The notes below the pieces were generated by a model, which made no database searches, was not told the origin of the DNA, and was given only the letters and a program-made list of their open reading frames with translations. A program made the position numbers and the translations under genes. Shown here one piece after another: positions 19,041 to 40,505 of a stretch of 46,679 nt of DNA (position 1 is the stretch's first letter; each line of letters begins with the position of its first letter). This DNA is from Pseudomonadota bacterium (GTDB lineage: Bacteria > Pseudomonadota > Gammaproteobacteria > Xanthomonadales > Xanthomonadaceae), in the NCBI GenBank assembly GCA_018240435.1, contig JAFEFT010000001.1:1-46679 (forward strand). The letters are read 5' to 3'.

Positions 19041-20294
19041 ATGCACCCGTTGAATCCGGTCGATGACGCCGTTCGTGGCGATTCAACCCGCACCTGTGTT
19101 CGTGCCGAGCCTGTCGAAGGTTCCGTTCGTGGCGCGCCCACCGAAGGTTCCGCTCGTGTTGTGCCCGTCGAAGATTCCGTTCGTGGTGGGCCTGTCGAAG
19201 ATTCCGTTCGTGGTGAGCCAGCCAAAGGCTCCGTTCGTGGTGAGCCTGTCGAACCACGGACGGGCGCACGATCCGCCTCGCCCTCGCGCGAATCCGTGCG
19301 CGCGCTGTTCGACCTGCCCTTCACTGAGCTGGTATTCCGCGCCGCCAGCGTTCACCGTCAACATTTCGACCCGGCGCAGGTGCAGGTGTCGACGCTGTTG
19401 TCGGTGAAAACCGGCGGCTGCCCCGAGGATTGCGCCTATTGCCCGCAGGCCGCGCGCTACGACACCGGCGTGCAGGCGCACAAGTTGATGGATACCGACG
19501 AAGTGCTGGCCAAGGCGCGCGCGGCCAAGGCGGCCGGGGCGAGCCGCTTCTGCATGGGCGCGGCGTGGCGTTCGCCGAAAGATCGCGACATCGCCAAGGT
19601 CGCCGACATGGTGAGCGCGGTGAAATCGCTGGGGCTGGAAACCTGCGCCACGCTCGGCATGCTGAGCGCCGCGCAGGCCGGCGCGCTCAAGCAGGCCGGG
19701 CTGGACTACTACAACCACAACCTCGACACCGCGCCCGAGTTCTACGGCCAGATCATCCACACCCGCGAGTATCAGGATCGCCTCGACACCCTCGGCCACG
19801 TCCGCGACGCCGGCCTGAAGACCTGCTGCGGCGGCATCGTCGGCATGGGCGAGTCGCGTGATGAGCGCGCCGGCCTGCTGCATGCGCTGGCGAGCCTGCC
19901 GGCGCATCCGGACTCGGTGCCGATCAATCGCCTCGTGAAAGTCGCCGGCACGCCATTGGCGGAACAAGCCGAGCTCGATCCGTTCGAGTTCGTGCGCACG
20001 ATCGCCGTCGCCCGCATCCTGATGCCGCGCTCGATGGTGCGGCTGTCGGCGGGACGGGCGACGATGAGCGACGAGTTGCAGGCGCTGTGCTTCCTCGCCG
20101 GCGCCAATTCGATCTTCCTCGGCGACAAGCTGCTGACCACAGGCAATCCCGATGTCGCCGCCGATCACGCCTTGTTCGCGCGCCTCGGCCTGCAGCCGAT
20201 GACGATCGGTTGCGGCGATGGCGACTCGCCCTGTGCCTGTGCCGGCACCGCCCACGCCGATGTGCGGGCGAGCGAAGCGGCAGCGCTGGTCTGA
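19041..20294 (+). CDS. bioB: Biotin synthase, with N-terminal nine-residue repeat extension
   Basis: BioB is the radical-SAM enzyme that inserts sulfur into dethiobiotin, the last step of biotin synthesis. The 4Fe-4S cluster ligands are Cys127, Cys131 and Cys134 in CPEDCAYC; later conserved blocks include [24 protein letters not shown] and RLSAGR. The product is 417 residues against about 346 in E. coli, because residues 11-73 are seven nine-residue repeats of the VRGEPVEGS type placed between a ten-residue leader ([10 protein letters not shown]) and the normal N-terminus near [16 protein letters not shown] 19041 is the only plausible start; a GTG inside the core (at VRALF) would cut conserved sequence. 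bioF, bioH and bioC follow on the same strand. Whether the extension is tolerated or removed is unknown. Confidence 0.95.
19071..19259 (+). repeat. 27-bp coding repeat array, seven units, inside bioB
   Basis: Seven units of exactly 27 bp start at 19071, 19098, 19125, 19152, 19179, 19206 and 19233. Each begins GTTCGTG (or a variant) and continues in a gGTGAGCCTGTCGAA pattern. They translate in the bioB frame to [54 protein letters not shown] and VRGEPVEPR. The units diverge towards the 5' end and are nearest to consensus at the 3' end. The same unit occurs in purH and at the bioH/bioC junction. Confidence 0.95.
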
Positions 20295-20454
20295 AGTGAA
20301 CGCGTCGGCAGCGGCGACGACGGCAGCGGACGAACGGCGGCCCGCGGCCGACGAACCGGGGCGATCCGTCCAGCGCGTCGCAGTTTCAAGGCGGCCATCG
20401 GCGCGATCATCGGGACAGCGCAACCAGAGGGGGGAAGCGCGCCCCGAACGGATC

Positions 20455-21687
20455 ATGGACAACGACGGCCAGCAGCGACGAATCGATCTGCGCGCGCGCG
20501 TGGACTCGGCGCTCGAACGGCGCGTGGCCGACGACCTGCTGCGCCAGCGGCGCACCGTCAGCCATTGCCGGCAGGCGCACGTCAGCTGCGACGGCCAGCG
20601 CCTGCTCGATTTCGCCGGCAACGACTACCTCGGCCTCGCCCACCATCCGGCGATGGTCAGCGCGATGCAGGTGGCGGCGCAGAATTGCGGCGTCGGCGCC
20701 GGCGCCTCGCACATGGTCTGCGGCCACCATCAGGAACACGAGGCGCTGGAGCGGGCGATCGCGCAGTGGCTCGGTTATCCGCGGGCGCTGCTGTTCGGTG
20801 CCGGCTATCTGGCCAATCTCGCGGTGATGCAGGCGCTGTTGCAGGCCGGCGATGTCTGCCTGCAGGACAAGCTCGACCACGCCAGCCTGATCGACGGCGC
20901 GCGCCTGTCGCAGGCCCGGCTGGTGCGCTATCCGCACGCCGACGTGGTGGCGGCGCGACGACAGGCGCAGGCGCATGCCGAGGGCGCATTGCTGCTGGCC
21001 ACCGACGGCGTGTTCAGCATGGATGGCGATGTCGCGCCGCTGGCCGAACTGGCCGCGCTCGCCGACGAGCAGCAAGGCCTGCTGTACGTCGACGAGGCGC
21101 ATGCGATCGGCGTGCTCGGCCCGGATGGGCGCGGCAGCGCCGCCGCCGCCGGACTCGACCCACGACGCGCACCGTTGCTGCTGGTGACCCTCGGCAAGGC
21201 GCTGGGCAGTTGCGGTGCGGTGCTGGTCGGGCAGGACTGGATCATCGAACACGTCATGCAAACCGCGCGCGCGTACATCTACACCACGGCGATGCCGCCG
21301 GCGTTGGCGGTGGCGGCGCTGACGGCGGTCAAGCTGGCGCGCGAGCAGTCGTGGCGACGCGAGAAGCTGGCCGGCCTGATCGCGCGCTTTCGCAGCGGCG
21401 CGCAGGCGCTCGGCCTGCAATTGCTCGATTCGCACACCCCGATCCAGCCGCTGCCGGTTGGCGACAACACACGGCTGCTGCGGATTGCGCAGAATCTGCA
21501 CGAACGCGGCTTCCTGGTCGGCGCGATCCGGCCGCCGAGCGTGCCGCCGGGGGGTGCCCGCCTGCGCATCACCCTCAGCGCCGCGCACGAGCCGCACGAC
21601 ATCGATGCCTTGCTCGACGCGCTGGCACCGCTGGCTGCCGAGATCGCCGCAGGCAAAGGCGATCCAGACCATTCGGTGGCCGGCTGA
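20455..21687 (+). CDS. bioF: 8-amino-7-oxononanoate synthase
   Basis: The 410-residue PLP enzyme condenses pimeloyl-ACP (or -CoA) with alanine to form 8-amino-7-oxononanoate in biotin synthesis. The family stretches are FAGNDYLGLAHHP (53-65), GAGASHMVCGHH (81-92), TDGVFSMDGD (183-192), YVDEAHAIGVLGP (211-223) and LVTLGKALGS, with the PLP lysine at 248. The frame is open from 20218, but ATG 20455 (MDNDGQQRRIDLRARVDSAL) is where family homology begins. The 160-bp gap from bioB shows no gene. Its TGA overlaps the bioH ATG by one base (21685-21689), so bioF and bioH are coupled. Confidence 0.94.
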   Translation: MDNDGQQRRIDLRARVDSALERRVADDLLRQRRTVSHCRQAHVSCDGQRLLDFAGNDYLGLAHHPAMVSAMQVAAQNCGVGAGASHMVCGHHQEHEALERAIAQWLGYPRALLFGAGYLANLAVMQALLQAGDVCLQDKLDHASLIDGARLSQARLVRYPHADVVAARRQAQAHAEGALLLATDGVFSMDGDVAPLAELAALADEQQGLLYVDEAHAIGVLGPDGRGSAAAAGLDPRRAPLLLVTLGKALGSCGAVLVGQDWIIEHVMQTARAYIYTTAMPPALAVAALTAVKLAREQSWRREKLAGLIARFRSGAQALGLQLLDSHTPIQPLPVGDNTRLLRIAQNLHERGFLVGAIRPPSVPPGGARLRITLSAAHEPHDIDALLDALAPLAAEIAAGKGDPDHSVAG

Positions 21688-22511
21688 TGCAGATTTCGAC
21701 GCGCGGCAGCGGCCCGCCGCTGGTGCTGATCCACGGCTGGGCGATGCACTCGGACCTGTTCGGCCGCCTGCTCGACCGTCTGGCGGCACATCGCACCTTG
21801 CATCTGGTCGATCTGCCCGGACATGGCCGCAGCCGTGACGACACCTCGCCACTGGATCTGGAAACCTGCGTGCAGGTCATCGCCGATGCCACGCCGCCGG
21901 CGCCGTGGCTGGGCTGGTCGCTCGGCGGCCTGTTTGCGCTGCACGCCGCGCTGTCGTGGCCCGCGCAGGTGCCGGCGCTGGCGATGCTGTGTTCGACGCC
22001 GCGCTTCGTGCGTGCGCCGGATTGGCCGCGCGGCATGGATGTCGAGATCTTCCGCCGCTTCGAAGCCGATCTGCGCCAGGATGTGCACGCCACCATCGAG
22101 CGCTTCCTCGCGCTGGAAACGCTCGGCTGCGAAACCGCGCGCGGCAACGTGCGCGAACTGCGTCAGCATGCGTTCCTGCATGGCGATCCCGCGCCGGCCG
22201 CATTGACCGAAGGCCTGCATCTGCTGGAGAACACCGATCTGCGCGCGCGCCTGCCGACACTGACCGTGCCGAGTCTGTGGATCGGTGCCCGCCGCGATCG
22301 TCTGGTCGATCCACGCGCGGTCGCCAGTGCCGCCGCGCTGACGCCGATGGCGAGGCATGTGCAGCTCGACTCCGGCCACGCACCCTTCCTGACGCATGCC
22401 GAAGCGCTGGCGGAGGTGGTCGCCGGGTTTCTCGTCGACGCCAACGCAACACATCCGGTTCGAGGCAGGCGCGACGACGTTTCCGTTCGTGGTGAGCCTG
22501 TCGAACCATGA
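21687..22511 (+). CDS. bioH: Pimeloyl-[ACP] methyl ester esterase, repeat-derived C-terminus
   Basis: The 274-residue alpha/beta hydrolase removes the methyl group from pimeloyl-ACP methyl ester, ending the BioC-started route to the biotin precursor. HGWAMHSDLFGRL (16-28) is the BioH oxyanion region. Ser78 in GWSLGG is the nucleophile, the Asp lies in GARRDRLVDP, and the His in DSGHAPFLTH. The last residues, SVRGEPVEP, and the TGA stop come from a copy of the repeat found in bioB and purH, added after a natural-looking end near FLVDANA. The stop overlaps the bioC start in an ATGA at 22508-22511. It lies between bioF and bioC, in pathway order. Confidence 0.93.
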   Translation: MQISTRGSGPPLVLIHGWAMHSDLFGRLLDRLAAHRTLHLVDLPGHGRSRDDTSPLDLETCVQVIADATPPAPWLGWSLGGLFALHAALSWPAQVPALAMLCSTPRFVRAPDWPRGMDVEIFRRFEADLRQDVHATIERFLALETLGCETARGNVRELRQHAFLHGDPAPAALTEGLHLLENTDLRARLPTLTVPSLWIGARRDRLVDPRAVASAAALTPMARHVQLDSGHAPFLTHAEALAEVVAGFLVDANATHPVRGRRDDVSVRGEPVEP

Positions 22512-22515
22512 ACGG
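22483..22515 (+). repeat. 33-bp palindrome-ended repeat at the bioH/bioC junction
   Basis: One unit of the repeat runs from CCGTTC (22483-22488) to GAACGG (22510-22515), which are inverted ends; GTTCG and CGAAC inside form a shorter inverted pair. It encodes the last residues of bioH in the same frame as the copies in bioB and purH, and its ATGA supplies the bioH stop and the bioC start. Confidence 0.9.
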
Positions 22516-23413
22516 CCAACCCCAAAGCCCCATCGACAGCGCCCGCCTGCGCCGAGCGTTCGCTCGTGCCGCCGACGGCTATGACGCCGTCGCCCACTTG
22601 CAGCGCGAAGTGGAGTCGCGCCTGCTCGAACAACTCGCCGCGCTTGAAGATCGCATCCCCGAGCGCGCGCTCGACCTCGGCGCCGGGCCCGGGCGTGCGG
22701 CGCGAGCGCTGCGCGAACGCTGGCCGAAGGCGCAGGTGCTGGCGCTGGATTTCGCGCTGCCGATGCTGCAACGGGTCGGCGCGCAAAAGCCGTGGTGGAA
22801 GCCCGGCGCGCAACGTCTGCACGCGATCTGCGCCGACGCCGCCGCGTTGCCGCTGGTCGATGGCAGTTGCGACCTGGTGTTTTCCAGCCTCTGCCTGCAA
22901 TGGGCTATCGATCTGCCACGCACCTTGCGCGGCCTGCGTCGGGTGATGCGCCCGGATGGCCTGTTGCTGTTCTCCACATTCGGCCCGGATACCCTGCGTG
23001 AACTGCGCGACGCCTTCGCCAGCGCTGGCGCCGGCAACCCGGTTACGCCGTTCGCGCACATCCAGCAGGTCGGCGATGCCTTGCAGGAGGCCGGTTTTCG
23101 CGATCCGGTGCTCTACCGCGAACATTTCACCCTGACTTACCCCGATCCGCGCGCGTTGATGCGCGAGTTGCGCGCGCTGGGCGCGCACAACGCCCGCACC
23201 GATCGCCGCCGCGCGTTGATGGGCAAGGCGCGCATGGCGCGCGTGATCGAAAGCTACGAATCGCTGCGTCGCGACGGCACCCTGCCCAGCACCTGGGAAG
23301 TGATCTACGCGCAGGCCTTCGCGCCACCGCCGGGACAACCGCTGCGCGGCGATGGCAGCGAGATCGCCAGCGTGCCGTTGTCGGCGATCCCGATCCGGCG
23401 ACGTGGCGGGTGA
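22508..23413 (+). CDS. bioC: Malonyl-[ACP] O-methyltransferase
   Basis: The 301-residue SAM-dependent methyltransferase converts malonyl-ACP (or -CoA) to its methyl ester, so that fatty-acid synthesis can build the pimeloyl chain. The SAM-binding loop is LDLGAGPGR (55-63); other BioC-like blocks are LRRAFARAADGYDAVAHLQ, SSLCLQWAIDLPRTL and FSTFGPDTLRELR. The start codon and first residues (MNGQ) come from the repeat copy that also ends bioH; native homology begins near residue 11. The overlap with bioH implies coupled translation. It ends 33 bp before the convergent PH-domain gene. Confidence 0.94.
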   Translation: MNGQPQSPIDSARLRRAFARAADGYDAVAHLQREVESRLLEQLAALEDRIPERALDLGAGPGRAARALRERWPKAQVLALDFALPMLQRVGAQKPWWKPGAQRLHAICADAAALPLVDGSCDLVFSSLCLQWAIDLPRTLRGLRRVMRPDGLLLFSTFGPDTLRELRDAFASAGAGNPVTPFAHIQQVGDALQEAGFRDPVLYREHFTLTYPDPRALMRELRALGAHNARTDRRRALMGKARMARVIESYESLRRDGTLPSTWEVIYAQAFAPPPGQPLRGDGSEIASVPLSAIPIRRRGG

Positions 23414-23446
23414 GGACTCCCGCAGCCCCGCGCAGGGCCGCGTCGA

Positions 23447-23965
23447 TTACCCGCCGACTTCCGTGTTCATGTCCACCTCGCGCACGCCGCGTGCGGCGCG
23501 ACAGGCTTCGACGAGGTTGCGGATCTGGTTCCACAAGGTCTCGGGTGCGCGCATCCCGGCCAGCACCACCAGCGGTTCGCTGTCCTGGGTGGTGCGCAGG
23601 CGGATCGTGCCCAGCCCGAAGATGCGTTCGGCCAGCGGCTGGGTGAAGTGGGAATCCTTGACCCGGTACAGCTCCACGTAGTCGGTGGTGCGGTTGAGGA
23701 TGCCGCGGCGCAGGATCAGCCGCTGGTCGGTCAGGGTGATCTGCTCGCAGCGGGTTTGCAGCCAGCGCTTGCCGGCGACGATGGCCGGCACCAGCAACAG
23801 CAGCAATGGCACCCAGCTCGGCAGGCGCGACCCATGCACCTTGATCGCGGCCACCAGCAGCACCAGCGCGACCACGGCGCACAGCGCGTACAGGCCCAGA
23901 TGGCGGATCTGCGACGGGGTGCCGCTCCAGACTTCCTTCTCGTCGGCAGGATGGGGTGTGTTCAT
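23447..23965 (-). CDS. PH domain-containing membrane protein
   Basis: The 172-residue protein has two adjacent membrane segments (about 22-42 and 50-64) followed by a bacterial PH domain of the YdbS type, with LTDQRLILRRGILNRTTDYVELYRVKD (78-104) and the FGLGTIRLRTTQ strand. Such proteins are small inner-membrane proteins without a settled function. I start at ATG 23965 (MNTPHPADEKEVW); the extra upstream codons to 24061 include Cys-rich non-conserved sequence. It ends 33 bp from convergent bioC and lies downstream of the dehydratase gene on the same strand. Confidence 0.85.
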   Translation of the reverse strand: MNTPHPADEKEVWSGTPSQIRHLGLYALCAVVALVLLVAAIKVHGSRLPSWVPLLLLLVPAIVAGKRWLQTRCEQITLTDQRLILRRGILNRTTDYVELYRVKDSHFTQPLAERIFGLGTIRLRTTQDSEPLVVLAGMRAPETLWNQIRNLVEACRAARGVREVDMNTEVGG

Positions 23966-24026
23966 GGCCGGATTCCAGATGTGGCGGGACAGGCAGCCTC
24001 GGCAGTGTGCCAGAAACCCGGTCGCC

Positions 24027-25028
24027 TCAAGGCGGCCACGGCAGCGCATCGAGATCGACATTGCCGCCGCTGAGCACGACGCCCACGCGCTGGCCGGCGA
24101 AGTGTTCGCGTGCGGCCAGCAGCGCCGCCAGTGTCACCGCCGAGGAGGGTTCGACGACGATTTTCAGATGCTGCCAGAGCAATCGCATGGCGGCGACGAT
24201 CTGCGTTTCGCCGGCCAGCATGATGCCGTCGATGCGTTCGCGCAGGATGGCGAAGGTGATCGGTGCCAGATGCCCGCGCAGGCCATCGCAGATCGTGTCG
24301 GGAACCCGATCGTCGAGCAGGCGATTGGCGCGCAGCGAATCGTGGGCATCGGCGGCCTGTTCGGGTTCGGCACCCCACAACGTCGTGCGCGGCGACAGCG
24401 CGCGCGTGGCGATCGCGCAACCCGAGAGCAGACCGCCGCCACCGACCGGCGCGATCAGCGCGTCGATGCTGTCGCACTGGCGCAGCAGCTCCAGCGCCAC
24501 CGTGCCCTGCCCGGCGATCACGCGCGGATCGGCAAACGGATGCACCAGTTCCGCACCGGTACGCGCGATCAGCGCGGCGGTCGCGGCATCGCGTGCGGCC
24601 ATGGTCGGCGCGCAGTCGACGATGCGTGCGCCGTAACTCGCGATCGCCGCGCGTTTCACCTTCGCCGCATTCTCCGGCACAACGACTTGCGCACCGATGC
24701 CGCGCAAGCGTGCCGCGAGCGCCAGCGCCGCGCCGTGGTTGCCGGAACTTTGCGTGACCACGCCGCACGCGGCGGTCGCATCATCCAGCGCGAACACCGC
24801 GTTGCAGGCGCCGCGAAACTTGAACGCGCCGATGCGCTGGAAGTTCTCGCACTTGAAATGCAGTTCGCAGCCGGCGAGATCGTCGAGCGCATCCGCGCGC
24901 AGCACCGGCGTGATCTGCGCGTATGGAACGATGCGCGCAGCGGCGTCGAGGATGGCAGACAGATCGACCACGGCGTCGGTGGGCGTCGTGCCGGCGGCGG
25001 GCGGCGGATCGGTGCGCATCGGCCGCAT
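24027..25028 (-). CDS. PLP-dependent threonine/serine dehydratase-like enzyme
   Basis: The 333-residue enzyme is a fold-type II PLP protein close to threonine/serine dehydratases and serine racemases. The PLP lysine is Lys70 in GAFKFRGA. SSGNHGAALA (94-103) binds the substrate carboxylate, GGGGLLSG binds phosphate, and SGGNVDLD closes the C-terminus. There is no ACT regulatory domain, so it is a short catabolic or racemase type rather than IlvA. The exact substrate (Thr, Ser, hydroxyaspartate) cannot be decided. Starts at 25028 or 25019 (MRTDPPP) are both possible. It is divergent from pepN, with 44 bp between starts. Confidence 0.85.
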   Translation of the reverse strand: MRPMRTDPPPAAGTTPTDAVVDLSAILDAAARIVPYAQITPVLRADALDDLAGCELHFKCENFQRIGAFKFRGACNAVFALDDATAACGVVTQSSGNHGAALALAARLRGIGAQVVVPENAAKVKRAAIASYGARIVDCAPTMAARDAATAALIARTGAELVHPFADPRVIAGQGTVALELLRQCDSIDALIAPVGGGGLLSGCAIATRALSPRTTLWGAEPEQAADAHDSLRANRLLDDRVPDTICDGLRGHLAPITFAILRERIDGIMLAGETQIVAAMRLLWQHLKIVVEPSSAVTLAALLAAREHFAGQRVGVVLSGGNVDLDALPWPP

Positions 25029-25072
25029 GATAATCTTCCTGTCTGCACGATCACCTGTGTGGATACCTTGCG

Positions 25073-27688
25073 ATGACCGACTCCGGCCCTTCCGGCCAGA
25101 CCGAAACGCTGCTCGCCGATTACCGTGCGCCGGCCTGGCGCGTCGCCCATGCCGACCTCGCTTTCGATCTCGACGCCGAGGCCACGGTCGTCAGCGCACG
25201 CTTGCAGTTGCAGCCCGATCCGGCGCAGCCCGGCGCGCCGCTGGTGCTCGATGGGCAGGAGCTGGAACTGCTGGCCATCGCCCTCGACGGTCAGCCGCTG
25301 CCCGCCGATCGTTACCACCTCGACGACCAACAGCTGACCGTTCACGGCGTGGCCGCTGCCTGCGTGCTGGAAACCCGCTGCCGCATCCATCCGGCGCGCA
25401 ACACGAGGCTGGAAGGCCTTTATCGCAGCGGGCAGTCGCTGTTCACGCAGTGCGAGGCACAGGGCTTTCGCCGCATCACCTGGTTCACCGACCGCCCCGA
25501 CGTGATGCCGCGCTGGCGCATCACCCTGCGCGCCGACAAGGCCGCTTATCCCGTGCTGCTGGGCAACGGCAACCCGGTGACGCAGGCCGAGCTGGGCGAT
25601 GGCCGCCACGAGGTGGTGTGGGAGAACCCGCATCCGACGCCGTGTTATCTGTTTGCGATCGTCGCCGGCCATCTGCACTGCCTGCGCAAGGACGTGGTCA
25701 CCGCCGATGGCCGCGCGGTGGCGCTGCAGGTGTGGGCCGCGCCCAACGATGTGGCGCGCTGCGCCTACGCGCTGGGCGCGGTCGAACGCGCGCTGCGCTG
25801 GGACGAACAGCGCTTCGGCCGCTGCTATGACCTGTCCGTGTTCAACGTCGTCGCCGCCCAGGATTTCACCATGGGCGCGATGGAGAACAAGGGCCTGAAC
25901 ATCTTCAACGCCCGCTACATCCTCGCCGACGAGGACACCGCCACCGACGCCGACTACCAGGGCATCGAATCGGTGATCGGCCACGAGTATTTCCACAACT
26001 GGTCGGGCAATCGCGTCACCCTGCGCGACTGGTTCCAGCTCGCGCTGAAGGAAGGCCTGACCGTGTTCCGCGATCAGGAGTTCGTGTCCGACCTGCAATC
26101 GCGCCAGGTCAAGCGTATCGAGGACGTGCGCCTGCTGCGCTCGCGCCAGTTCGCCGAGGACGCCGGTGCGCTGGCGCATCCGGTGCGGCCCGATCGCTAT
26201 CGCGAGATCAACAACTTCTACACGCTCACGGTGTACGAAAAAGGTGCGGAGATCGTGCGCATGCTGCACACCTTGCTCGGCGAGGAAGCCTTCCGCGCCG
26301 GCATGGATCGCTACTTCGCCGACAACGATGGTCGCGCCGCCACCATCGAGGATTTCATCACCGCCCACGAACGGGCCTCCGGGCGCGAGCTGGCGCAATT
26401 TGCGCGCTGGTACGCGCAGGTCGGCACGCCGCAGATCGAGGTCGAGGATGCCTTCGCGGACGGTCGCTATGTGTTGACGATCCGCCAGCGCCAGCGCGAT
26501 GCACAGGCCCTGCCGCTGCACCTGCCGCTGCGTTTTGCCCTGCACGATGGCGACGGCCGGCCGCTGGCGGCCCGTTCCGTGCAAGCCGATGCGCGCATGC
26601 GCGAGGGCTTGATCGAGCTGCACGCATCGGTGCACACGCTGGTGTTCGAGGGGCTGGCGACGCGGCCGTTGCCTTCATTCAACCAGGGCCTGAGCGCGCC
26701 GGTAAAGCTGCGCTACGACTACCGCCCCGAGCAGTTGGCGCAACTGGCGCGTAGCGAACGCGACGGGCTGGCGCGCTGGGAAATGCTGCAACGGCTGGCG
26801 CAAGGCGTGCTGCTGGGCGAATTCGCGGCCGACGCATCGGCCGGCGCGGCGCTGTCCGACGCGATCGGGCAGTTGCTCGACGATGCCGGCGAGGATCCGG
26901 CGCTGGTCGCCGAATGCATGGCCCTGCCCGATTTCGACACCTTGGCCGACGCCCAGGCGCGGATCGACATCGACGGCCTGTTGACGGCGCGCAAGGCCTT
27001 GCTGCGGGAGCTGGCACACCGCCATCGCGACCGCCTGCACGCCCGTTACCACGCGCTGGCGCCGGCGGCGGCGGCCGGCCTGGATGGGCGCGCCATCGCC
27101 GCCCGCCGCTTGCGCAATGCCTGTCTGTCCTGGCTGACCGAAATCGACCCGCAGGCCCAGCTGGCACAGGCCCAGTTCGCGGCGGCGACCGGCATGACCG
27201 ATCGGTTGGCGGCACTGCGCTGCCTGCTGCATGCCGGGGCCGAGGCGTCCAGCGCCGCCGAGGCGGCATACATCCAGCGCCATCACGACGACCCGCTGGC
27301 GATCGACAAATGGCTGACCGTGGCGGTGATGCGCCCGCATGCCGATGCCGCAGAGCGCGTGCGCGAACTGATCGATTCGAGCTGGTGGACGCCGACCAAT
27401 CCCAACCGGGTGCGCGCCATCCTCGGCGGATTCTCGCGGATGAATCCGACCGCCTTCCATCGTGCCGACGGCGCCGGCTATGCCTTGCTGAGCGAACAAC
27501 TGCCGCTGCTCGACCGCATCAATCCGCAGGTGGCCGCGCGCCTGCTCGCCGGCTTCGAGAGCTGGCGACGCTGGGACGACGCCCACGCGGCGCTGGCGCG
27601 CGCACGGCTGGAAACGCTGCGCGGGCGGCTGGCCTCGCGCGATGCCAACGACCTGCTCGGCCGGCTGCTGGCCGAGCCGGCGCGCTGA
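25073..27688 (+). CDS. pepN: Aminopeptidase N
   Basis: The 871-residue M1-family zinc aminopeptidase removes N-terminal residues from peptides in the cytoplasm. The exopeptidase motif GAMENKG is at 268-274. Zinc site HEYFHNW is at 304-310, with the third ligand Glu in LALKEGLTVF just after. The C-terminal part, ending in FESWRRWDDAHAALARARLE and RLLAEPAR, is the helical superhelix found in the E. coli PepN subfamily, and the length matches it (870). It is divergent from the dehydratase gene. A perfect 18-bp palindrome follows 28 bp after the stop and may serve as a terminator stem. Confidence 0.96.
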   Translation: MTDSGPSGQTETLLADYRAPAWRVAHADLAFDLDAEATVVSARLQLQPDPAQPGAPLVLDGQELELLAIALDGQPLPADRYHLDDQQLTVHGVAAACVLETRCRIHPARNTRLEGLYRSGQSLFTQCEAQGFRRITWFTDRPDVMPRWRITLRADKAAYPVLLGNGNPVTQAELGDGRHEVVWENPHPTPCYLFAIVAGHLHCLRKDVVTADGRAVALQVWAAPNDVARCAYALGAVERALRWDEQRFGRCYDLSVFNVVAAQDFTMGAMENKGLNIFNARYILADEDTATDADYQGIESVIGHEYFHNWSGNRVTLRDWFQLALKEGLTVFRDQEFVSDLQSRQVKRIEDVRLLRSRQFAEDAGALAHPVRPDRYREINNFYTLTVYEKGAEIVRMLHTLLGEEAFRAGMDRYFADNDGRAATIEDFITAHERASGRELAQFARWYAQVGTPQIEVEDAFADGRYVLTIRQRQRDAQALPLHLPLRFALHDGDGRPLAARSVQADARMREGLIELHASVHTLVFEGLATRPLPSFNQGLSAPVKLRYDYRPEQLAQLARSERDGLARWEMLQRLAQGVLLGEFAADASAGAALSDAIGQLLDDAGEDPALVAECMALPDFDTLADAQARIDIDGLLTARKALLRELAHRHRDRLHARYHALAPAAAAGLDGRAIAARRLRNACLSWLTEIDPQAQLAQAQFAAATGMTDRLAALRCLLHAGAEASSAAEAAYIQRHHDDPLAIDKWLTVAVMRPHADAAERVRELIDSSWWTPTNPNRVRAILGGFSRMNPTAFHRADGAGYALLSEQLPLLDRINPQVAARLLAGFESWRRWDDAHAALARARLETLRGRLASRDANDLLGRLLAEPAR

Positions 27689-27715
27689 CCTCGCCGCCGC
27701 GGTGCAATGCGCGCA

Positions 27716-27733
27716 CGGCAGCGGCCGCTGCCG
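27716..27733. terminator. Palindrome after pepN, possible terminator stem
   Basis: CGGCAGCGGCCGCTGCCG is a perfect 18-bp palindrome 28 bp after the pepN stop. No run of T follows on either strand, so a factor-independent terminator is not proven. Confidence 0.3.
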
Positions 27734-27793
27734 CAGCCTTAAGGGGCGATTCACCGTCGCAGGTCAAGACTCCGGGGCATTCGGAGGTGCGCC

Positions 27794-28850: not shown

Positions 28851-29204
28851 ATGTACCCCGACTCCGCCCAGCCGGTGGCGCCGCTGGCGTTCACCGCCGC
28901 CGCCGCGCGCAAGGTCGCCGAATTGGTGCGCGAGGAGGGTAACGCCGCGCTCAAGCTGCGCGTGTACATCCAGGGCGGCGGCTGCTCGGGCTTCCAGTAC
29001 GGGTTTTCGTTCGACGAGGAACAGGCCGAGGACGACATCGCCGTCCATACCGACGAGGCGACCTTGCTGATCGACCCGCTGAGCCTGCAATACCTGCTCG
29101 GCGCCGAGGTCGACTACAGCGAGAGCCTGCACGGCGCGCAGTTCACCATCCGCAATCCGAACGCGAAAACCACCTGCGGCTGCGGCAGCTCGTTCTCGGC
29201 CTGA
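28851..29204 (+). CDS. erpA: Iron-sulfur cluster insertion protein ErpA
   Basis: The 117-residue A-type carrier delivers Fe-S clusters to target apoproteins such as IspG/IspH. The three conserved ligands are Cys45 in [11 protein letters not shown] and Cys109 and Cys111 in [11 protein letters not shown]. The stretch [18 protein letters not shown] is typical of ErpA. Two starts are possible: ATG 28851 (used here) or GTG 28833, which adds six residues; neither has a good ribosome binding site. nudC follows after 16 bp on the same strand. Confidence 0.92.
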
Positions 29205-29220
29205 ATCACGTCCTTCGCGC

Positions 29221-30945: not shown

Positions 30946-30989
30946 TCTTTCGGACGGGTTGCTTCATGCAAGGGCAGGAGGAACCCACG

Positions 30990-33218: not shown

Positions 33219-33254
33219 TTCGCGCGTCTGGTGGAGGCGAAGGCGAGTCGATCA

Positions 33255-33286
33255 GCGCGCCGTTGGCGAGGTGAACGTGCGCAGGT
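33255..33286 (+). repeat. Right 32-bp direct repeat flanking the sigma/kinase pair
   Basis: This copy (GCGCGCCGTTGGCGAGG and on) matches 30098-30129 at 30 of 32 bases. It repeats the nudC 3' end, including its stop, in a place where no nudC gene exists, 36 bp after the kinase stop. Confidence 0.85.
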
Positions 33287-33320
33287 CAGGCTAGAATCGC
33301 GGCATGCACCGAGCGCCCGC

Positions 33321-34208: not shown

Positions 34209-34253
34209 TCTTCCTGCGATGGGTTGCGCGCGGGCGACGGCTCCGACCGGGGC

Positions 34254-36131
34254 TCAGGCCATCTCCCCGCGCAGCGTGCGCACTTGCGTTTCCAGCGCGG
34301 CGGCGGTGGCCGTTGTCCCGTCCACCGGCGCGCCGACGATCAGCTCCACGCGCGCACGCAGCCGCCGCGGCATTCTCAGCCGGCGCAGCTGCGAGTCGCG
34401 GCGGCTCCACATGCTCGCCCACATGCCGCGCAGCGCCAGCGGGATCACCGGCACCGGGCGGCGGGCGAGGATGCGTTCGACGCCGCCGCGGAAGGGCGCG
34501 ATTTCGCCGTCTTTCGTCAATGCCCCTTCGGGGAAGATGCATACCAGTTCGCCTTCGGCCAGCGCCGCATCGACGGCATCGAAGGCGCGTTGCATCAGTT
34601 CCGGATCTTCCTTGGCGCTGGCGATCGGGATCGCCTTGGCCGCCTTGAACATCCACGCCGCGCAGGGCGTGTTGAAAATCTTGTGGTACATCACGAAGCG
34701 CGCCGGTCGCGGCACCGCGCCGCCGATCAACATCGCGTCGAGATAGCTGACGTGGTTGCACACCAGCAGCGCCGGGCCTTCGTCGGGGATGCGCTCGATG
34801 CCGTCCACCCGCAATCGGTACAGCGCCCGGCCCAGCATCCAGCAAAAAAAGCGCATGCCGAATTCGGGCACCAGGGTGAAGATGTAGATCGCCACCAGCG
34901 CATTGAGCACGGCGGTCGCCAGCAGCAGTTGCGGCACGCTCAGGCCGAGCTTGAGCAAGCCCAGCCCGAACAGCGAAGCCAGCACCATGAACACCGCGTT
35001 GAGGATGTTGTTGCCGGAAATCACCCGCGAGATTTGCTCGCGCGGCGTGCGCGACTGCACCAGCGCGAACAGCGGCACGATGTAGAGGCCGGCGAACACG
35101 CCGATCAGCAGCAGGTCGATGCAGATTCGCCAGTGGCCGGGCTGGGCGAGGAAGGCCAACGCGCCCAGTTCATGCACGCGCGCCGGCGTGTGGCAGGCGA
35201 AATACAGATCGATGCCGAGCACCGTCAGGCCGAGCGAACCCAGCGGTACGAGTCCGATCTCGACCGTCCGCCCGGATAATTTCTCGCACAGCAGCGAGCC
35301 GATGCCGGTGCCGATCGAGAACAGCGCCAGCGCCAGCGTCTCGACGCTGCCGCTGCCGCCGAGGTAATCCTTGGTGTAGCTCGGTAGCTGCGCGGTGAAC
35401 ACCAGCCCGAAGAACCAGAACCACGAGATGCCCAGCACCGAGTTGAACACGGTGCGGTTTTGCGCGACGAAGCGCAGCGAACGCCACGTGGCGCGCGCGA
35501 TGTTCCAGTCGAACGGCAGTTCGGGCGCGGTCGCCGGTGCCGGTGGTATCTGCCGGCTGCACAGGTAGCCGACGATGGCGACGGCGATCACCAATGCCGC
35601 CGCGGCCGGCGCGCCCCAGATCGTCATCGCCACGCCGCCGCCGATCATGCCGATCAGCACCGCCATCGACGTACCCATTTCCACCAAGCCATTACCGCCG
35701 ACCAGCTCGGCCGGATGCAGCACCTGCGGCAAGATCGCGTACTTGATTGGCCCGAACAGCGTCGAATGCAGGCCCATCATCACCAGCACCGTCAACAGCA
35801 GCGGTACGCTTTTTGCGTAGAACGCATACGCCGCCAGCGCCATCGCCGCGATCTCGAACAACTTCACGTAGCGGATCAGCCGCGTCTTCTCGAACTTCTC
35901 GGCGATCTGCCCGGCGCTGGCCGAGAACAGGAAGAACGGCAGGATGAACAGTGCCGGCGCAAGGTTGGAGTAGAACGACACCGCGCCGTCGCTGAGCCCG
36001 ATCTGGAATCCGACCAGGACGATCAACGCTTGGCGGAAGGCGTTGTCGTTGAACGCACCCAGCGCCTGGGTGAGGAAGAACGGCGCGAAGCGGCGCTGGC
36101 CGAGCAATTCGAATTGGTTGTGACCGGACAT
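34254..36131 (-). CDS. MFS transporter-acyltransferase fusion (LplT-PlsC type)
   Basis: The 625-residue protein joins an N-terminal major facilitator domain of about 420 residues, like the lysophospholipid flippase LplT (QALGAFNDNAFRQAL near the start, GLHSTLFGPIKYAILPQ in the middle), to a PlsC-type 1-acylglycerol-phosphate acyltransferase domain. The acyltransferase motifs are NHVSYLD (459-465) and FPEG (533-536). It likely takes in lysophospholipids and re-acylates them at the inner membrane. Many homologues carry a third, AMP-binding acyl-ACP synthetase domain as in Aas; that domain is absent here, and no separate gene for it lies nearby. ATG 36131 was chosen over an upstream TTG. Confidence 0.9.
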   Translation of the reverse strand: MSGHNQFELLGQRRFAPFFLTQALGAFNDNAFRQALIVLVGFQIGLSDGAVSFYSNLAPALFILPFFLFSASAGQIAEKFEKTRLIRYVKLFEIAAMALAAYAFYAKSVPLLLTVLVMMGLHSTLFGPIKYAILPQVLHPAELVGGNGLVEMGTSMAVLIGMIGGGVAMTIWGAPAAAALVIAVAIVGYLCSRQIPPAPATAPELPFDWNIARATWRSLRFVAQNRTVFNSVLGISWFWFFGLVFTAQLPSYTKDYLGGSGSVETLALALFSIGTGIGSLLCEKLSGRTVEIGLVPLGSLGLTVLGIDLYFACHTPARVHELGALAFLAQPGHWRICIDLLLIGVFAGLYIVPLFALVQSRTPREQISRVISGNNILNAVFMVLASLFGLGLLKLGLSVPQLLLATAVLNALVAIYIFTLVPEFGMRFFCWMLGRALYRLRVDGIERIPDEGPALLVCNHVSYLDAMLIGGAVPRPARFVMYHKIFNTPCAAWMFKAAKAIPIASAKEDPELMQRAFDAVDAALAEGELVCIFPEGALTKDGEIAPFRGGVERILARRPVPVIPLALRGMWASMWSRRDSQLRRLRMPRRLRARVELIVGAPVDGTTATAAALETQVRTLRGEMA

Positions 36132-36221
36132 GCGCAAGATCCCCAAGGCTCGGCCGCAGTGTAGCCGGGCCGATGGATGCAGCGCGCCGACGTTGGCGGG
36201 GTAGGGCGGTGCGATGCCGCA

Positions 36222-36250
36222 GGTAGCGCGTGGGTCGACTGCGCGCTACC
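36222..36250. other. Hairpin (9-bp stem)
   Basis: GGTAGCGCG at 36222-36230 is matched by CGCGCTACC at 36242-36250, with an 11-base loop. It lies between the MFS-acyltransferase start and the end of doc. No T-run follows. Confidence 0.4.
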
Positions 36251-36280
36251 CACGTGTTTGGATGCAGGGTCGCCACGGCG

Positions 36281-36303
36281 CGCGCTGCGGTATCCGCAGC
36301 GCG
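36281..36303 (-). terminator. Hairpin downstream of doc, possible terminator
   Basis: CGCGCTGCGG, a three-base TAT spacer and CCGCAGCGCG form a perfect 10-bp stem, 58 bp beyond the doc stop. The absence of a T-run leaves its role as a terminator unproven. Confidence 0.35.
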
Positions 36304-36360
36304 ACTTTCCGGACGCTGCGATCTGCGTGAGGCCCGGCGGCGAGGACCGCGCTGGTCGAT

Positions 36361-36795
36361 TCAGCGCGCGCGGCGGTAGCGGTCCGGTGCTTCGTGCACG
36401 GCCTTGCCGGTTTCCAGTCGCAGCCGCGGGCGCAACCAGGCGGCGAAATCGGCTTCCGCGAGGCTGCCGTCGGCGAGGCAGAGCATTTGCAGGTATTTTT
36501 CTTCCTCACTCGCCGCCAGCATGGCATCGTTGATGGCGAGGAAGACGCGATAGCACACGTGCGCGGTGCGCTTGTTGCCATCGACGAAGGGATGATTGCG
36601 CGCCAGGCCGAAAGCCAGGCTGGCGGCGAGGTCGGCCAGGTCGGGTGGCGGCTCGCCATAGGCGAACAACTGCCGGGGCCGCGCCAGCGCGGACTGCAGC
36701 AGGGATTCGTCGCGCACGCCGTCGCCGCCGCCGTGTTCGGCGAGCTGGCGCTGGTGGATGGCCAGGGCGAGCTCGCGCTCGATCCAGACGATCAT
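36361..36795 (-). CDS. doc: Type II toxin, Doc/Fic family
   Basis: The 144-residue protein is a Doc-type Fic-fold toxin. The core motif reads HPFVDGNKRTAH (68-79), matching HxFx(D/N)xNKR. P1 Doc, the model member, phosphorylates elongation factor Tu and so blocks translation; the same is expected here. The stretch RDESLLQSALARPRQLFAYGE is conserved in chromosomal Doc proteins. The antitoxin gene lies 7 bp upstream on the same strand, so the two form an operon. The short arginine tail DRYRRAR ends the protein. The family call is strong; the toxicity is untested. Confidence 0.92.
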   Translation of the reverse strand: MIVWIERELALAIHQRQLAEHGGGDGVRDESLLQSALARPRQLFAYGEPPPDLADLAASLAFGLARNHPFVDGNKRTAHVCYRVFLAINDAMLAASEEEKYLQMLCLADGSLAEADFAAWLRPRLRLETGKAVHEAPDRYRRAR

Positions 36796-36802
36796 GGCGT
36801 GA

Positions 36803-37024
36803 CTACTGCGCCAGCTTGCGCAGCAGGTCGCGATCCTCGCGCATGATCCGCTCGGCCACTTCCATCTGCGCGGCGAACACCGGGTCGTAGCGGGTCAGGC
36901 GGATGCCGTCGGGGGTTTCCACCGCGTACAGCTCGTCGCCCTTGTCCACGCGCAGGCGGGCGAGCAAATCCTTGGGCAGGATGACGCCGGCCGAATTGCC
37001 GATGCTGGTGACTTTGAGTTTCAT
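36803..37024 (-). CDS. AbrB/MazE-type antitoxin
   Basis: The 73-residue product has an N-terminal swapped-hairpin AbrB DNA-binding fold (MKLKVTSIGNSAGVILPKDLL, then VDKGDELYAVE), and a C-terminal helical, acidic part (VAERIMREDRDLLRKLAQ) that should wrap the toxin. It is the partner of the Doc toxin directly downstream. AbrB-type antitoxins with Doc toxins are common alternatives to the Phd type of phage P1. The antitoxin is expected to repress its own operon by binding the TTATA-rich repeats just upstream. Confidence 0.9.
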   Translation of the reverse strand: MKLKVTSIGNSAGVILPKDLLARLRVDKGDELYAVETPDGIRLTRYDPVFAAQMEVAERIMREDRDLLRKLAQ

Positions 37025-37044
37025 GGGAACCTCGCGGGACGCAC

Positions 37045-37063
37045 GTTATAACCGATGTTATAC
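37045..37063 (-). promoter_or_regulatory. Likely operator/promoter of the antitoxin-toxin operon
   Basis: GTTATAAC (37045-37052, itself a palindrome) and GTTATAC (37057-37063) are two copies of one motif, 12 bp apart, 21 bp before the antitoxin ATG. They stand out as AT-rich in a GC-rich region. On the coding strand, TATAAC could serve as the -10 box, so bound antitoxin would block transcription. Confidence 0.5.
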
Positions 37064-37098
37064 GCGATCGGCGGCGATGGCAATCCCTTCCCGTGCCT

Positions 37099-38388
37099 TC
37101 AGCCGCGCTCGCGGGCAATCGCGCGCCAGCCGATGTCGTGGCGGTGAAATTCGCCATCCCAGCTAATCTTCGCTGCCGCGGCGTAAGCCTCGCGTTGTGC
37201 TTGCGCGACCGAGTCGCCGAGCGCGCAGGCGCACAGCACGCGGCCGCCGGCGGTGACGATGCGGCCGTCGGCGGCGAGCTGGGTGCCGGCGTGGAAGACC
37301 TTGCTGCCGTCCGGCGCCGGTGCGTCGAGGCCGTGGATGACATCGCCGGTGCGCGGCGTGCCGGGATAGTTCGCCGCCGCCATCACCACCCCCAGCGCCG
37401 GGCGTGGATCCCATTGCGCGTGGGCGGTGTCGAGCCGGCCATCGATCGCCGCATCGACCAGATCGAGCAGATCGGATTGCAGGCGCAGCATCACCGGCTG
37501 GGTTTCCGGGTCGCCGAAACGGACGTTGAACTCGATCACCTTCGGCGCGCCGTGCGCGTCGATCATCAATCCGGCATACAAAAACCCGGTGAACGGCACG
37601 CCGTCGGCGGCCATGCCGCGCACGGTCGGCGCGACGATCTCGCGCATCACCCGCGCATGCACCTCGGGCGTGACCACCGGAGCCGGCGAGTAGGCGCCCA
37701 TGCCGCCGGTGTTGGGGCCGGTGTCGCCATCAAAGACGCGCTTGTGGTCCTGCGAGGTCGCCATCGGCAGCGCGGTCACGCCATCGACCATCGAGATGAA
37801 GCTGGCTTCTTCGCCGGCGAGGAATTCTTCGATCACCACCCGCGCACCGGCCGCGCCGAAAGCGTTGCCGGCGAGCATGTCGCGCACCGCGGCTTCGGCT
37901 TCGGCCAGCGACATCGCCACGATCACGCCCTTGCCGGCGGCCAGGCCATCGGCCTTGATCACGATGGGCGCACCGACCTGCTGCAGGTGGGCGAGCGCCG
38001 CATCAAGATCGGTGAACACCGCGTAGTGCGCCGTGGGGATGCCGTGGCGGGCGAGAAAATCCTTGGCGAACGCCTTGCTGCCTTCGAGCTGCGCAGCGGC
38101 GGCAGTCGGGCCGAAAATGCGCAGGCCCGCCGCGCGGAAAGCATCGACCACGCCCGCCACCAGCGGCGCTTCCGGGCCGACCACGGTCGATGCAATGGAT
38201 TCGCGTTCGACCAGTGCGAGCAGCCCGTCGATGTCGCTGGCCGCGACCGCGACGTTGCGGCACTTTCCTTCGGTGGCGGTACCGGCGTTGCCGGGGGCGA
38301 CCAGCACTTCGTCCACGCGCGGCGACTGCGCCAGCTTCCACGCCAGCGCGTGCTCGCGGCCGCCGGATCCGATGACGAGGATCTTCAT
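37099..38388 (-). CDS. purD: Phosphoribosylamine--glycine ligase
   Basis: The 429-residue ATP-grasp enzyme catalyses the second step of purine synthesis, joining glycine to phosphoribosylamine. The N-terminus [19 protein letters not shown], the block GPEAPLVAGVVDAF, ATP-grasp stretch VIKADGLAAGKGVIVA, and EFNVRFGDPETQPVM are all characteristic. The length equals the E. coli enzyme. Its ATG overlaps the stop of the upstream lipoprotein gene in an ATGA (38385-38388). It is the last gene of the fis-purH-lipoprotein-purD run. The divergent-direction TA operon ends 75 bp downstream. Confidence 0.97.
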   Translation of the reverse strand: MKILVIGSGGREHALAWKLAQSPRVDEVLVAPGNAGTATEGKCRNVAVAASDIDGLLALVERESIASTVVGPEAPLVAGVVDAFRAAGLRIFGPTAAAAQLEGSKAFAKDFLARHGIPTAHYAVFTDLDAALAHLQQVGAPIVIKADGLAAGKGVIVAMSLAEAEAAVRDMLAGNAFGAAGARVVIEEFLAGEEASFISMVDGVTALPMATSQDHKRVFDGDTGPNTGGMGAYSPAPVVTPEVHARVMREIVAPTVRGMAADGVPFTGFLYAGLMIDAHGAPKVIEFNVRFGDPETQPVMLRLQSDLLDLVDAAIDGRLDTAHAQWDPRPALGVVMAAANYPGTPRTGDVIHGLDAPAPDGSKVFHAGTQLAADGRIVTAGGRVLCACALGDSVAQAQREAYAAAAKISWDGEFHRHDIGWRAIARERG

Positions 38389-38807
38389 GGCGAGGATGCG
38401 CCGAACAGCTTGCAGTTGGGGGCTTTCATCGCGGTCAGCTCGAACACGGTCTTGCCGTCCTTGTCGAGGAAGCGGCGGGCGACCGTGAAATGGGCGTCCA
38501 TCAGTGCCTTGTAATCCGGATCATTGCAGGCGGCGACGTTGAGATCGCCCTGTTCCTGATTGCGGATGATCGGCAGCTTGGCCGGATCGAGCTTGGCGAC
38601 GGTGGCGAAAGGAATGCGGATGTCCACCACCAGCCGCTTGCCGTCGGCATGCGCGTGCTGCATCTGCAAGCCGTCGGCATAGGGCTTGGGCAGGCTCTGG
38701 TTGAGCTTGGCGGCGACGTGTTCGGGGTCGATCGGGGCCGGTGTCGGCTTGCAGGCTGCCAGCGCGGCGACGAGTGCGACCAATCCGATGCGGCGAAGGC
38801 GATTCAT
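38385..38807 (-). CDS. Lipoprotein of unknown function between purH and purD
   Basis: The 140-residue product has a lipoprotein signal ([19 protein letters not shown], lipidated Cys19). The mature part has no motif I recognise; it includes [21 protein letters not shown], two further Cys (AACNDPDYK and APNCKLF) that could form a disulfide, and [16 protein letters not shown]. Its stop overlaps the purD start by 4 bp, so it is coupled to purine synthesis genes although its own role is presumably in the envelope. The gap from purH is 30 bp. Confidence 0.8.
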
Positions 38808-38837
38808 GGATCAGGCTCCGAGCCGAGGCAGAGGAGT

Positions 38838-40505
38838 TCAGTGGCGGAAGTGGCGGCGACCGGTGAACACCATGGCGATGCCGTGCTCGTCGGCAGCGGC
38901 GATCACCTCGGCGTCGCGCAGCGAGCCGCCGGGCTGGATCACGCAGGCGATGCCGGCCGCGGCGGCGGCGTCGATGCCGTCGCGGAACGGGAAAAACGCA
39001 TCGCTGGCCATCGCTGCGCCAGGCACCGGCAGGCCGGCTTCTTCGGCCTTGAGCGAGGCGATCTTCGCGCTGACCACGCGGCTCATCTGGCCGGCACCGA
39101 CGCCGATGGTGCGGCCGTCCTTGGCATAGACGATGGCATTGGACTTGACGTGCATGGCGACCTTCCACGCGAACAGCAGGTCGCTCAATTCTTCCGCGGT
39201 GGGTGCGCGCCGGGTCACCACTTTCAGATCGGCGATGGTGAGTGCGTCGCTGTCGGCGTCCTGCACCAGCAGGCCGCCGGCGATGCGCTTGAAGTCGTAA
39301 CGCGAAGAGCGTGGTTCGACAGGCTCACCACGAACGGAATTTTCGACAGGCTCACCACGAACGGAATTTTCGACAGGCGCACCACCAACGGCCTCGTGCA
39401 GGGCACCACAGGCGAGCACACGCACGTTGGCCTTCTTCGCAAACGCGGCCAACGCATCGGGTTCGATCTCCGGCGCGATCACCACCTCGACGAACTGGCG
39501 CTTGACGATTTCGCGCGCGGTCGCCGCATCCAGCGGCCGGTTGCAGGCGATGATGCCGCCGAAGGCCGAGGTCGGATCGGTGGCCCAGGCGCGATCGTAG
39601 GCGGTGAGCAGCGTATCGGCGACGGCCACGCCGCAGGGGTTGGCGTGCTTGACGATCACGCAGGCCGGCCGGTCGAAGGACTTGACGCATTCCAGTGCGG
39701 CATCGGCATCGGCGAGATTGTTGTAGGAGAGCTCTTTGCCTTGCAGGAAGCGAGCGGTGGCGACGATGCCTGATGGCGCGTTCTTTTCGACGTACAGTGC
39801 ACCGGACTGGTGCGGGTTTTCGCCGTAGCGCAGGGCGCTGGCGAGATCGAGCGAGAGATGGAACGTGCGTGGCCAGATTTCCGGTTGCGACGGCTCGCCC
39901 GCCCGTGGCGACAGCCACTGCGCGATCGCGCCATCGTAGGCGGCGGTATGGGCATAGGCCTTGGCCGCGAACCGGCGACGCTGGGCGGCGGTGGTGCCGC
40001 CGGCAGCGATGGCATCGACCAACTCGCCATAATCGCGGGGATCGACCACCACCGCGACGCGCTGGTGATTTTTCGCCGCGCCGCGCAACATCGCCGGGCC
40101 GCCGATGTCGATGTTCTCGACCGCATCGTCGTAGCTGCAACCGGGCTTGGCGATGGTGGCCTCGAACGGATACAGATTGACCACCAGCAAATCGATCGGC
40201 GCGATGCGATGCGCGGCCATGACCGCATCGTCGACGCCGTCACGACCGAGCAGGCCGCCGTGGATCGTCGGGTGCAGGGTCTTGACGCGGCCGTCCATGA
40301 TTTCAGGGAAGCCGGTGACCTCGCTGACATCGCGCACGGCGATGCCGGCCTCGCGCAACGCCTTGGCGGTGCCGCCGGTGGACAGCAGTTCCACGCCGTG
40401 TGCGATCAGGGCGTCGGCGACGTCGATCAGCCCGGCCTTGTCGGAAACCGAAAGCAGGGCGCGGCGCACGGGCTGGCGCGCGGCAGCGGCATCATGGTTG
40501 GCCAT
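38838..40505 (-). CDS. purH: Bifunctional AICAR transformylase/IMP cyclohydrolase, with repeat insertion
   Basis: The 555-residue enzyme performs the last two steps of IMP synthesis. The N-terminal cyclohydrolase (MGS-like) domain has [15 protein letters not shown] and GRVKTLHP; the transformylase domain has YGENPHQ (near 227), KHANPCG (near 285) and [10 protein letters not shown]. Residues 373-399 are three in-frame nine-residue repeats ([27 protein letters not shown]), placed where E. coli PurH has a short surface stretch before DFKRVNGG; here [10 protein letters not shown] follows. This accounts for the length (529 in E. coli). Both flanks of the insertion are well conserved, so the enzyme is probably functional. 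fis lies upstream and the lipoprotein-purD pair downstream. Confidence 0.96.
39309..39389 (-). repeat. 27-bp coding repeat array, three units, inside purH
   Basis: Three exact 27-bp units lie at 39363-39389, 39336-39362 and 39309-39335, read on the minus strand. Each begins GTTCGTGGTGAGCCTGTCGA or a near variant and encodes the same nine residues, in the same frame, as the bioB array. The two downstream units are identical over the first 21 bases. Confidence 0.95.

Follow-up and report, generated by a model that had tools for sequence, protein, structure and literature searches.

A stretch of 46,679 nucleotides from a Pseudomonadota bacterium of the Xanthomonadaceae (GenBank assembly GCA_018240435.1, contig JAFEFT010000001.1, positions 1 to 46,679), referred to below as the window, raises the question of why one short palindromic repeat is read as the same peptide, VRGEPVE, in three unrelated genes. 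When the window was analysed with Tandem Repeats Finder (TRF), arrays with a 27-bp period were detected at 19098-19253 and 39315-39391, and the 20-mer TTCGTGGTGAGCCTGTCGAA gave eight matches at ≤3 mismatches compared to none in 100 shuffles. Translation confirmed what an earlier note on this DNA had described, eleven VRGEPVE units in genes on both strands: seven in an N-terminal extension of bioB and one at the C-terminus of bioH, both on the forward strand, and three in purH on the reverse strand, all with the codons GTT CGT GGT GAG CCT GTC GAA or variants of them. As these eleven units represent three loci and not eleven independent events, the coincidence of frame within the window is weak. 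An Rfam scan of the window gave no match at the gathering score.

The window is contig C11 of the genome (G000; 3.18 Mb in 71 contigs), and the repeat was therein followed in the whole genome, in relatives, in other organisms and in viral contigs. The repeat is most probably a non-autonomous element similar to the repetitive extragenic palindromes (REPs), and its copies inside genes would be the survivors of a filter that favours disordered peptides.

Structure and dispersal of the element

The unit follows the pattern CCGTTCG-NNN-TGAGCYTGTCGA-A-NNN-YG, a REP-like hairpin of 27-33 bp that lies within the 20-40 bp of hairpin-capable palindromes of this kind. Its conserved parts are the 5' tag CCGTTC, a fixed 11-nt loop (GAGCYTGTCGA) and a conserved stem of 5-6 bp that is variable in sequence but base-paired. 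Two subfamilies share the loop and the 5' tag and differ in the stem, TGG/CCA in A and CCC/GGG in B; A and B often alternate in orientation, many of them 48-61 bp apart, and single units and tandem arrays were also found.

Covariation of the stem was assayed on a list obtained with a degenerate pattern that imposed no pairing, which held 61 of the 78 copies from 12 other genomes. In 55 of these 61 copies all three variable stem pairs were standard (G-T allowed), compared to a mean of 15.9 and a maximum of 28 in a shuffled-arm control. This list and a separate test for each sample were used because the pooled figures included viral loci that had been found with pairing-imposing patterns. The variable pairs were 82-89% paired in the units of G000 (61-71% when shuffled) and 95-98% paired in the units around exact 24-mer matches in other organisms (49-76% when shuffled). 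The outer stem was not conserved (35-74% paired), and an 11-bp stem is therefore a property of some copies only. The A form with matching outer arms folded with a z of -5.5, with only -0.6 and -1.5 for B and C examples.

In G000, 261 copies were found at ≤3 mismatches (132 forward, 129 reverse), compared to a single one in the reversed control. The four congeners hold 1, 3, 5 and 7 copies. In the remaining 25 relatives searched, 0-2 were found, which is roughly what isolated hits with three mismatches amount to. With the pairing-free degenerate pattern, the family was detected in 13 of the 398 genomes of a phylum sample, G000 included, and the exact 24-mer was present in at least 115 stretches from records named Chloroflexi, Fibrobacteres, Tectomicrobia and alpha-, beta-, gamma-, delta- and epsilon-proteobacteria. 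Among plasmid records, 28 showed matches of weak to good quality to a 35-mer, mostly with no listed gene under the match.

The position of the copies was analysed in 61 stretches of G000 (716 kb, 80.5% called coding) that hold 253 of the 261 copies, with genes called by a purpose-written small hexamer gene finder. Among the 255 copies matching the family pattern at ≤2 mismatches in these stretches, 228 were intergenic, 26 lay wholly within called genes and one partly so; thus the family is of high copy number and mostly extragenic, as REPs are, and is found both within and between open reading frames, as the earlier note had suggested. By clusters, 9 of 70 included an intragenic copy. The 60 wholly intergenic clusters were located between same-direction (30), convergent (13) or divergent (7) genes or at edges (10); for comparison, all gaps of ≥40 bp comprised 212 same-direction, 53 convergent and 76 divergent ones. 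In the 115 stretches from other organisms, 248 of 264 copies (≤1 mismatch) were intergenic and 16 lay inside 8 genes, and in 62 loci of viral contigs 108 of 116 copies were intergenic, 7 were inside genes and one overlapped a gene end. In G000, the ends of contigs C12, C22, C37, C39, C40 and C61 fall within or close to repeat copies, so that the repeat probably breaks the assembly.

Reading frames of the copies inside genes

The frames are named here s0 (VRGEPVE, sense), a1 (STGSPRT, antisense) and a2 (LRQAQGER type), which together with a0 and s1 make up the five open frames. In G000, s0 copies were found in bioH (1), purH (3), recG (5), a CysI-like reductase (6), a GIY-YIG/TadA open frame (1) and valS (1, B form), and a1 copies in folC (2), a DeaD-type helicase (4), the TadA frame (1) and valS (1), whereas a2 was represented by one B copy in hrpB, read LRQAQGDR. 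The GIY-YIG/TadA locus (L061 948-1844) carries a GIY-YIG domain and a TadA-type deaminase within a single open frame, with repeat-derived sequence linking them, and may represent either two genes that share an open frame or a fusion that took place through the repeat.

In other organisms, the intragenic copies were read in a1 (8), s0 (7) and a2 (1). Their hosts, identified with Pfam, are AlaRS (L210, L269), a tRNA_SAD/DHHA1 protein (L172), SelB (L194), a complex I 51K-type protein (L223), Lnt (L253), GlnE (L208) and a type I restriction R-type protein (L214), in records of Chloroflexi or Dehalococcoidia, Nitrosomonadales, Gallionella, Methylobacter and Betaproteobacteria. Both AlaRS records, L210 from Dehalococcoidia and L269 from Chloroflexi, show an in-frame inverted pair at about the same site. 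The viral intragenic copies were read in a2 (3), a1 (2) and s0 (2), within six genes after merging L311 and L338, which encode a tail-tip J-type protein, a DUF5906/VapE-like protein, a terminase large subunit, a Mu-type transposase, an ATP-dependent DNA ligase and one protein without a family. In another viral locus (L333 655-675), a unit overlaps the 3' end of a phage portal gene, and the in-frame TGA of this unit terminates the gene.

Over the three samples, the gene-frame pairs were 14 for s0, 13 for a1, 4 for a2 and none for a0 or s1 (chi-square p 4e-6). None of the 23 host genes used a0 or s1 (p 8e-6 under an expectation of 2/5), and 19 of them used only s0 or a1 (p 3.6e-5). When the test was split, the restriction was detected both in the genes of G000 alone (p 0.0038) and in those of other organisms plus viral contigs (p 0.0039). 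The four genes with a2 copies were hrpB and L311/L338 (B type) and L214 and L322 (A type), with an s0 copy also present in L214. These counts omit bioB, whose start is uncertain, and L056 and L333, and take L311 and L338, which share the same gene context, as one. The tests treat genes as independent, which AlaRS L210 and L269 may not be; with one of these two dropped, 18 of 22 genes use only s0 or a1. Therefore, the reading frames are non-random, as had been proposed, although the proposal of a single frame did not hold, since antisense STGSPRT is as common as VRGEPVE. The genome-wide census also revealed the mostly intergenic position that the earlier note would have taken as a sign of chance survival, but not the random frames expected along with it.

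A possible effect of gene-caller scoring was assayed by placing a consensus unit in each frame into 200 sampled genes of G000 and recomputing the gene score under the fixed model, not by a full re-run. The five open frames stayed open, the mean score changed by -1.3 (s1), -4.0 (s0), -4.6 (a1), -7.7 (a0) and -9.8 (a2), and the upstream part became negative in 0-6 of the 200. As s1 was the least penalised frame and yet was never found wholly inside a gene, its absence is not a scoring artefact.

The frames in use encode hydrophilic peptides. In the A form, s0 and a1 had the lowest grand average of hydropathy (GRAVY) of the frames (-1.35 and -1.21) and the highest share of disorder-promoting residues (75%); the GRAVY was -1.00 for a2 and -0.26 and -0.84 for the unused frames. 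In the B form, the most hydrophilic frame was a2 (-1.25), and with a hand-typed tail s0 reached a stop just after the core. The peptides are thus probably disordered, and the simplest reading is that selection against hydrophobic or aromatic inserts acts as the frame filter.

Host loci in the window and insertion sites in relatives

The features of the window are collected in Table 1.

Table 1. Repeat units of the window and the genes that carry them.
Feature	Position	Strand	Basis or remark
bioB (biotin synthase), repeat-derived N-terminal extension	19041..20294	+	Radical_SAM and BATS domains; ATG 19041 start resembles that of congener G002
Seven-unit array with a 27-bp period, some units degenerate, read VRGEPVE	19071..19265	+	Translation and TRF
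bioH-like alpha/beta hydrolase, ending in one repeat unit (VRGEPVEP stop)	21687..22511	+	Abhydrolase_1
Single exact unit at the bioH 3' end	22483..22511	+	Sequence match
purH (AICAR transformylase / IMP cyclohydrolase), repeat-derived loop	38838..40505	-	AICARFT_IMPCHas and MGS domains
Three units with a 27-bp period, read VRGEPVE, adding ~27 residues to a variable loop	39315..39391	-	TRF, translation, alignment

The first unit of the bioB array is very degenerate. The gene caller placed the start of bioB downstream of the array, at GTG 19296, whereas a start at ATG 19041 is backed by the similar one of congener G002 (MNVSNPIDDS), and because of this resemblance the array is likely, if not proven, to be translated. 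The stop codon of bioH overlaps the start of the following gene (ATG 22508).

When the insertion sites were compared with those of relatives, sites without the insert were found for five genes. In the purH alignment, the site is occupied by a short variable loop in 17 of 18 relatives, and relative to the solved PurH 3zzm the insert is located between residues 364 and 365 of the chain. At this site the congener G004 carries a single unit, split, degenerate and read in the same frame, which starts TCC GTT CCT GGT GAG CC and ends GTGTCGAACCACGG. The inserts of recG and folC were absent from all four congeners. That of cysI was absent at the exact site from all four as well, with one VRGELGEP unit further downstream in G004, and that of valS was absent from two of three congeners, G003 not being aligned. 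The modified enzymes presumably still work.

Other repeats were found at some of these positions in the congeners. The same loop of the G004 ValS holds the repeat TGTGGGAGCGGCTTCCAGCCGCGA, read in frame as SVGAASSRD; it has 44 copies in G004 and none in G000-G003, and a GTAG-type pattern gave no matches for it. In the linker of the DeaD-type helicase, G001 and G002 (L303, L305) carry in-frame PSPPPLTGEGLGRGGE-type sequence from another palindrome (of CCCCTCCCC...GGGAGAGGGG type) where G000 has STGSPRT. At the N-terminus of the G004 BioB (L135), PVLSEAEG is found twice, apparently from another repeat, where G000 has the VRGEPVE units. Tolerant sites thus appear to collect whichever repeat is active in the species.

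Same-orientation units ≤120 bp apart were spaced by multiples of 3 in 14 of 14 cases inside genes, because such units share one frame, compared to 29 of 96 in intergenic positions. Five units of recG share the local variant GCTTGTCGA, which suggests that arrays also grow by local duplication.

The search for a mobilising enzyme was carried out with a single Pfam model, Y1_Tnp (PF01797), at E 0.001. No match, and thus no transposase of the REP-associated tyrosine transposase (RAYT) type that the earlier note had proposed to look for, was found with it in G000, which is 99.96% complete, although contigs of this genome begin or end in arrays and a Y1 gene could therefore lie in an assembly gap. 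Five of the 12 other repeat-bearing genomes were also without a match, among them G256 (22 copies) and G310 (4 copies), each of one contig and 100% complete; these one-contig genomes suggest that a resident Y1 transposase is not needed to keep the family. In the four congeners and the 12 repeat-bearing genomes together, 16 matches were found in 10 of the 16 genomes, two of them apparently parts of one gene, and no repeat copy was present near any of the 16 (2.1-3.4 kb fetched, with flanks of ~1.5 kb).

Origin of the in-gene copies and relation to known systems

A mobile REP-like element filtered by the disorder of its peptides is, in our opinion, the probable origin of the in-gene copies. The element would spread by a trans-acting activity and then locally by tandem duplication, and most of the copies landing in genes would be eliminated. 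The survivors would be those in tolerant loops, linkers or termini that keep the frame, read in frames whose peptides are hydrophilic and prone to disorder, namely VRGEPVE in the sense direction, STGSPRT in the antisense one and, more rarely, a2.

Several observations weigh against this proposal. In the B form, a0 (-1.01) scores no worse than s0 (-0.97); hydropathy alone thus fails to tell the two frames apart, and GRAVY by itself does not account for the missing a0 in that form. In the viral sample the frame bias is weak (two genes each for s0, a1 and a2), two copies that overlap gene ends, outside the count, are in other frames (L056, gene start, s1; L333, gene end, s2), and the folC insert also holds an uncounted degenerate a2 stretch, LRQAQGRP, below the match threshold. 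Outside G000, genes were called with models pooled by G+C. Relatives were aligned for recG, folC, purH, cysI, valS and the DeaD-type gene, with tadA, hrpB and bioH left out, and in each of the four congeners the linker of the DeaD-type gene is long and varies. The site comparisons are between species, with one genome per species, and give no direct proof of movement, and the Y1_Tnp searches in G000 and the 16 other genomes identified no mobilising enzyme.

The frame restriction could also result from the insertion itself, if a target preference tied to codon phase set the same register for both orientations; the peptide would then need no selection. This would predict what is found for s0 and a1, which have the same phase relative to the hairpin arms (in the A form both begin SVRG), though not shared codon boundaries. 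However, 4 of the 23 genes use a2, which is another phase, the host loci range in G+C from below 54% to above 62%, and the columns outside the element in the G000 logo revealed no strongly fixed target, so that we consider phase-specific insertion unlikely. A useful peptide, namely a linker domesticated under selection for its sequence, had been named beside a harmless one in the earlier note, and the different repeats held by congeners in the same regions (valS loop, DeaD-type linker, bioB N-terminus) and the persistence of a degenerate unit in the same frame in the G004 purH loop would agree with it. In contrast, the mismatches at the three codon positions numbered 3/18/8 over 22 coding s0 units, those of bioB among them, and 12/63/35 over 179 A-type units from intergenic DNA, a similar spread that shows no sign of selection on the peptide sequence after insertion; moreover, most aligned relatives have no insert, and the units of bioB and of the G004 purH carry amino acid changes. 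A domesticated linker is accordingly judged a slightly poorer candidate still.

That three genes of the window agree by luck, with no frame bias behind them, could be argued from its having only three independent loci and from the intergenic position of most copies, but the frame bias in 23 genes over three samples, which is not due to gene-caller scoring, had already turned against it and leaves it very improbable. Least probable is a plain minisatellite, in which 27-bp units would be duplicated locally without relation to a dispersed element: period-27 arrays with local variants, such as that of recG, are what it predicts, whereas the 70 dispersed clusters in the examined stretches, in both orientations and with many singletons, and the exact 24-mer in several phyla are not. 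As a complete explanation the minisatellite is refuted, local duplication being a secondary step.

A broader possibility, to which we give a small chance but a larger one than to any of these alternatives, is that the repeat belongs to a cross-phylum class of selfish hairpins whose sequence has itself been shaped to be compatible with coding, so that it enters essential genes either way and is a recurrent source of loop insertions. Its palindromy would then place both orientations in one phase relative to the hairpin arms and give disordered linkers from both strands, therefore allowing entry with little harm.

Whether or not the class is so wide, the filtered REP-like element that we favour offers, in its frame restriction, a quantitative mark of the selection that acts on newly inserted peptides, and the members of its family can be counted and used to test how mobile DNA turns into protein. 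As the repeats of congeners differ in the same protein regions, tolerant insertion sites can be compared directly. For annotation, stretches of the SVRGEPVE, STGSPRT or LRQAQGER type in bacterial proteins can be repeat-derived.

In the open-licence literature searched, no description of this repeat sequence or its peptides was found, and its core strings are absent from the main text of the work of Di Nocera et al. 2013 (PMC3733652), in which intragenic REPs of the GTAG and CGTC super-families are described. The present family is like those REPs, as far as the sections consulted describe them, in forming a short hairpin one end of which is conserved and unpaired, in its high copy number, in the opposite orientation of neighbours and in its mostly intergenic position, with a minority of copies inside genes that include helicases and tRNA synthetases. 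It belongs to neither super-family by sequence: the GTAG tag is missing, the conserved 5' end being CCGTTC, and CGTC REPs have a CGTC (TGTC/CCTC) tag, a stem of 8-9 bp beginning with AT pairs and a loop of 4-5 nt (PMC3733652), unlike the CCGTTC tag, 5-6 bp stem and 11-nt loop found here. In the same sections, no frame restriction is reported for GTAG and CGTC REPs.

With respect to the REP/RAYT systems (Nunvar et al. 2010, PMC2817692, in the parts consulted), the high copy number and the alternating orientations, as in bacterial interspersed mosaic elements, are shared, whereas here no Y1 transposase was detected in G000 and no repeat within ~1.5 kb of the 16 Y1_Tnp matches elsewhere. The enterobacterial RU elements, according to the portions seen of Delihas 2007 (PMC2759123), are likewise small mobile repeats read as parts of proteins, but of 103-168 bp and similar to miniature inverted-repeat transposable elements. 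The closest in kind, as had been anticipated, are the Rickettsia palindromic elements (RPEs), which the consulted parts of PMC10969869 describe as in-frame palindromes of ~150 bp with a conserved peptide in Rickettsia proteins; RPE-4 and RPE-6 are short CGTC-type repeats (PMC3733652, in part). Like them, the present repeat is a palindrome read in frame within unrelated metabolic genes, whose proteins presumably work, a likeness of description; unlike the RPEs of PMC10969869, its units are of 27-33 bp, found in several phyla and located mostly between genes. The repeat is therefore a distinct REP-like family, in a setting where in-frame palindromic repeats were already known from Rickettsia and from scattered intragenic REPs.

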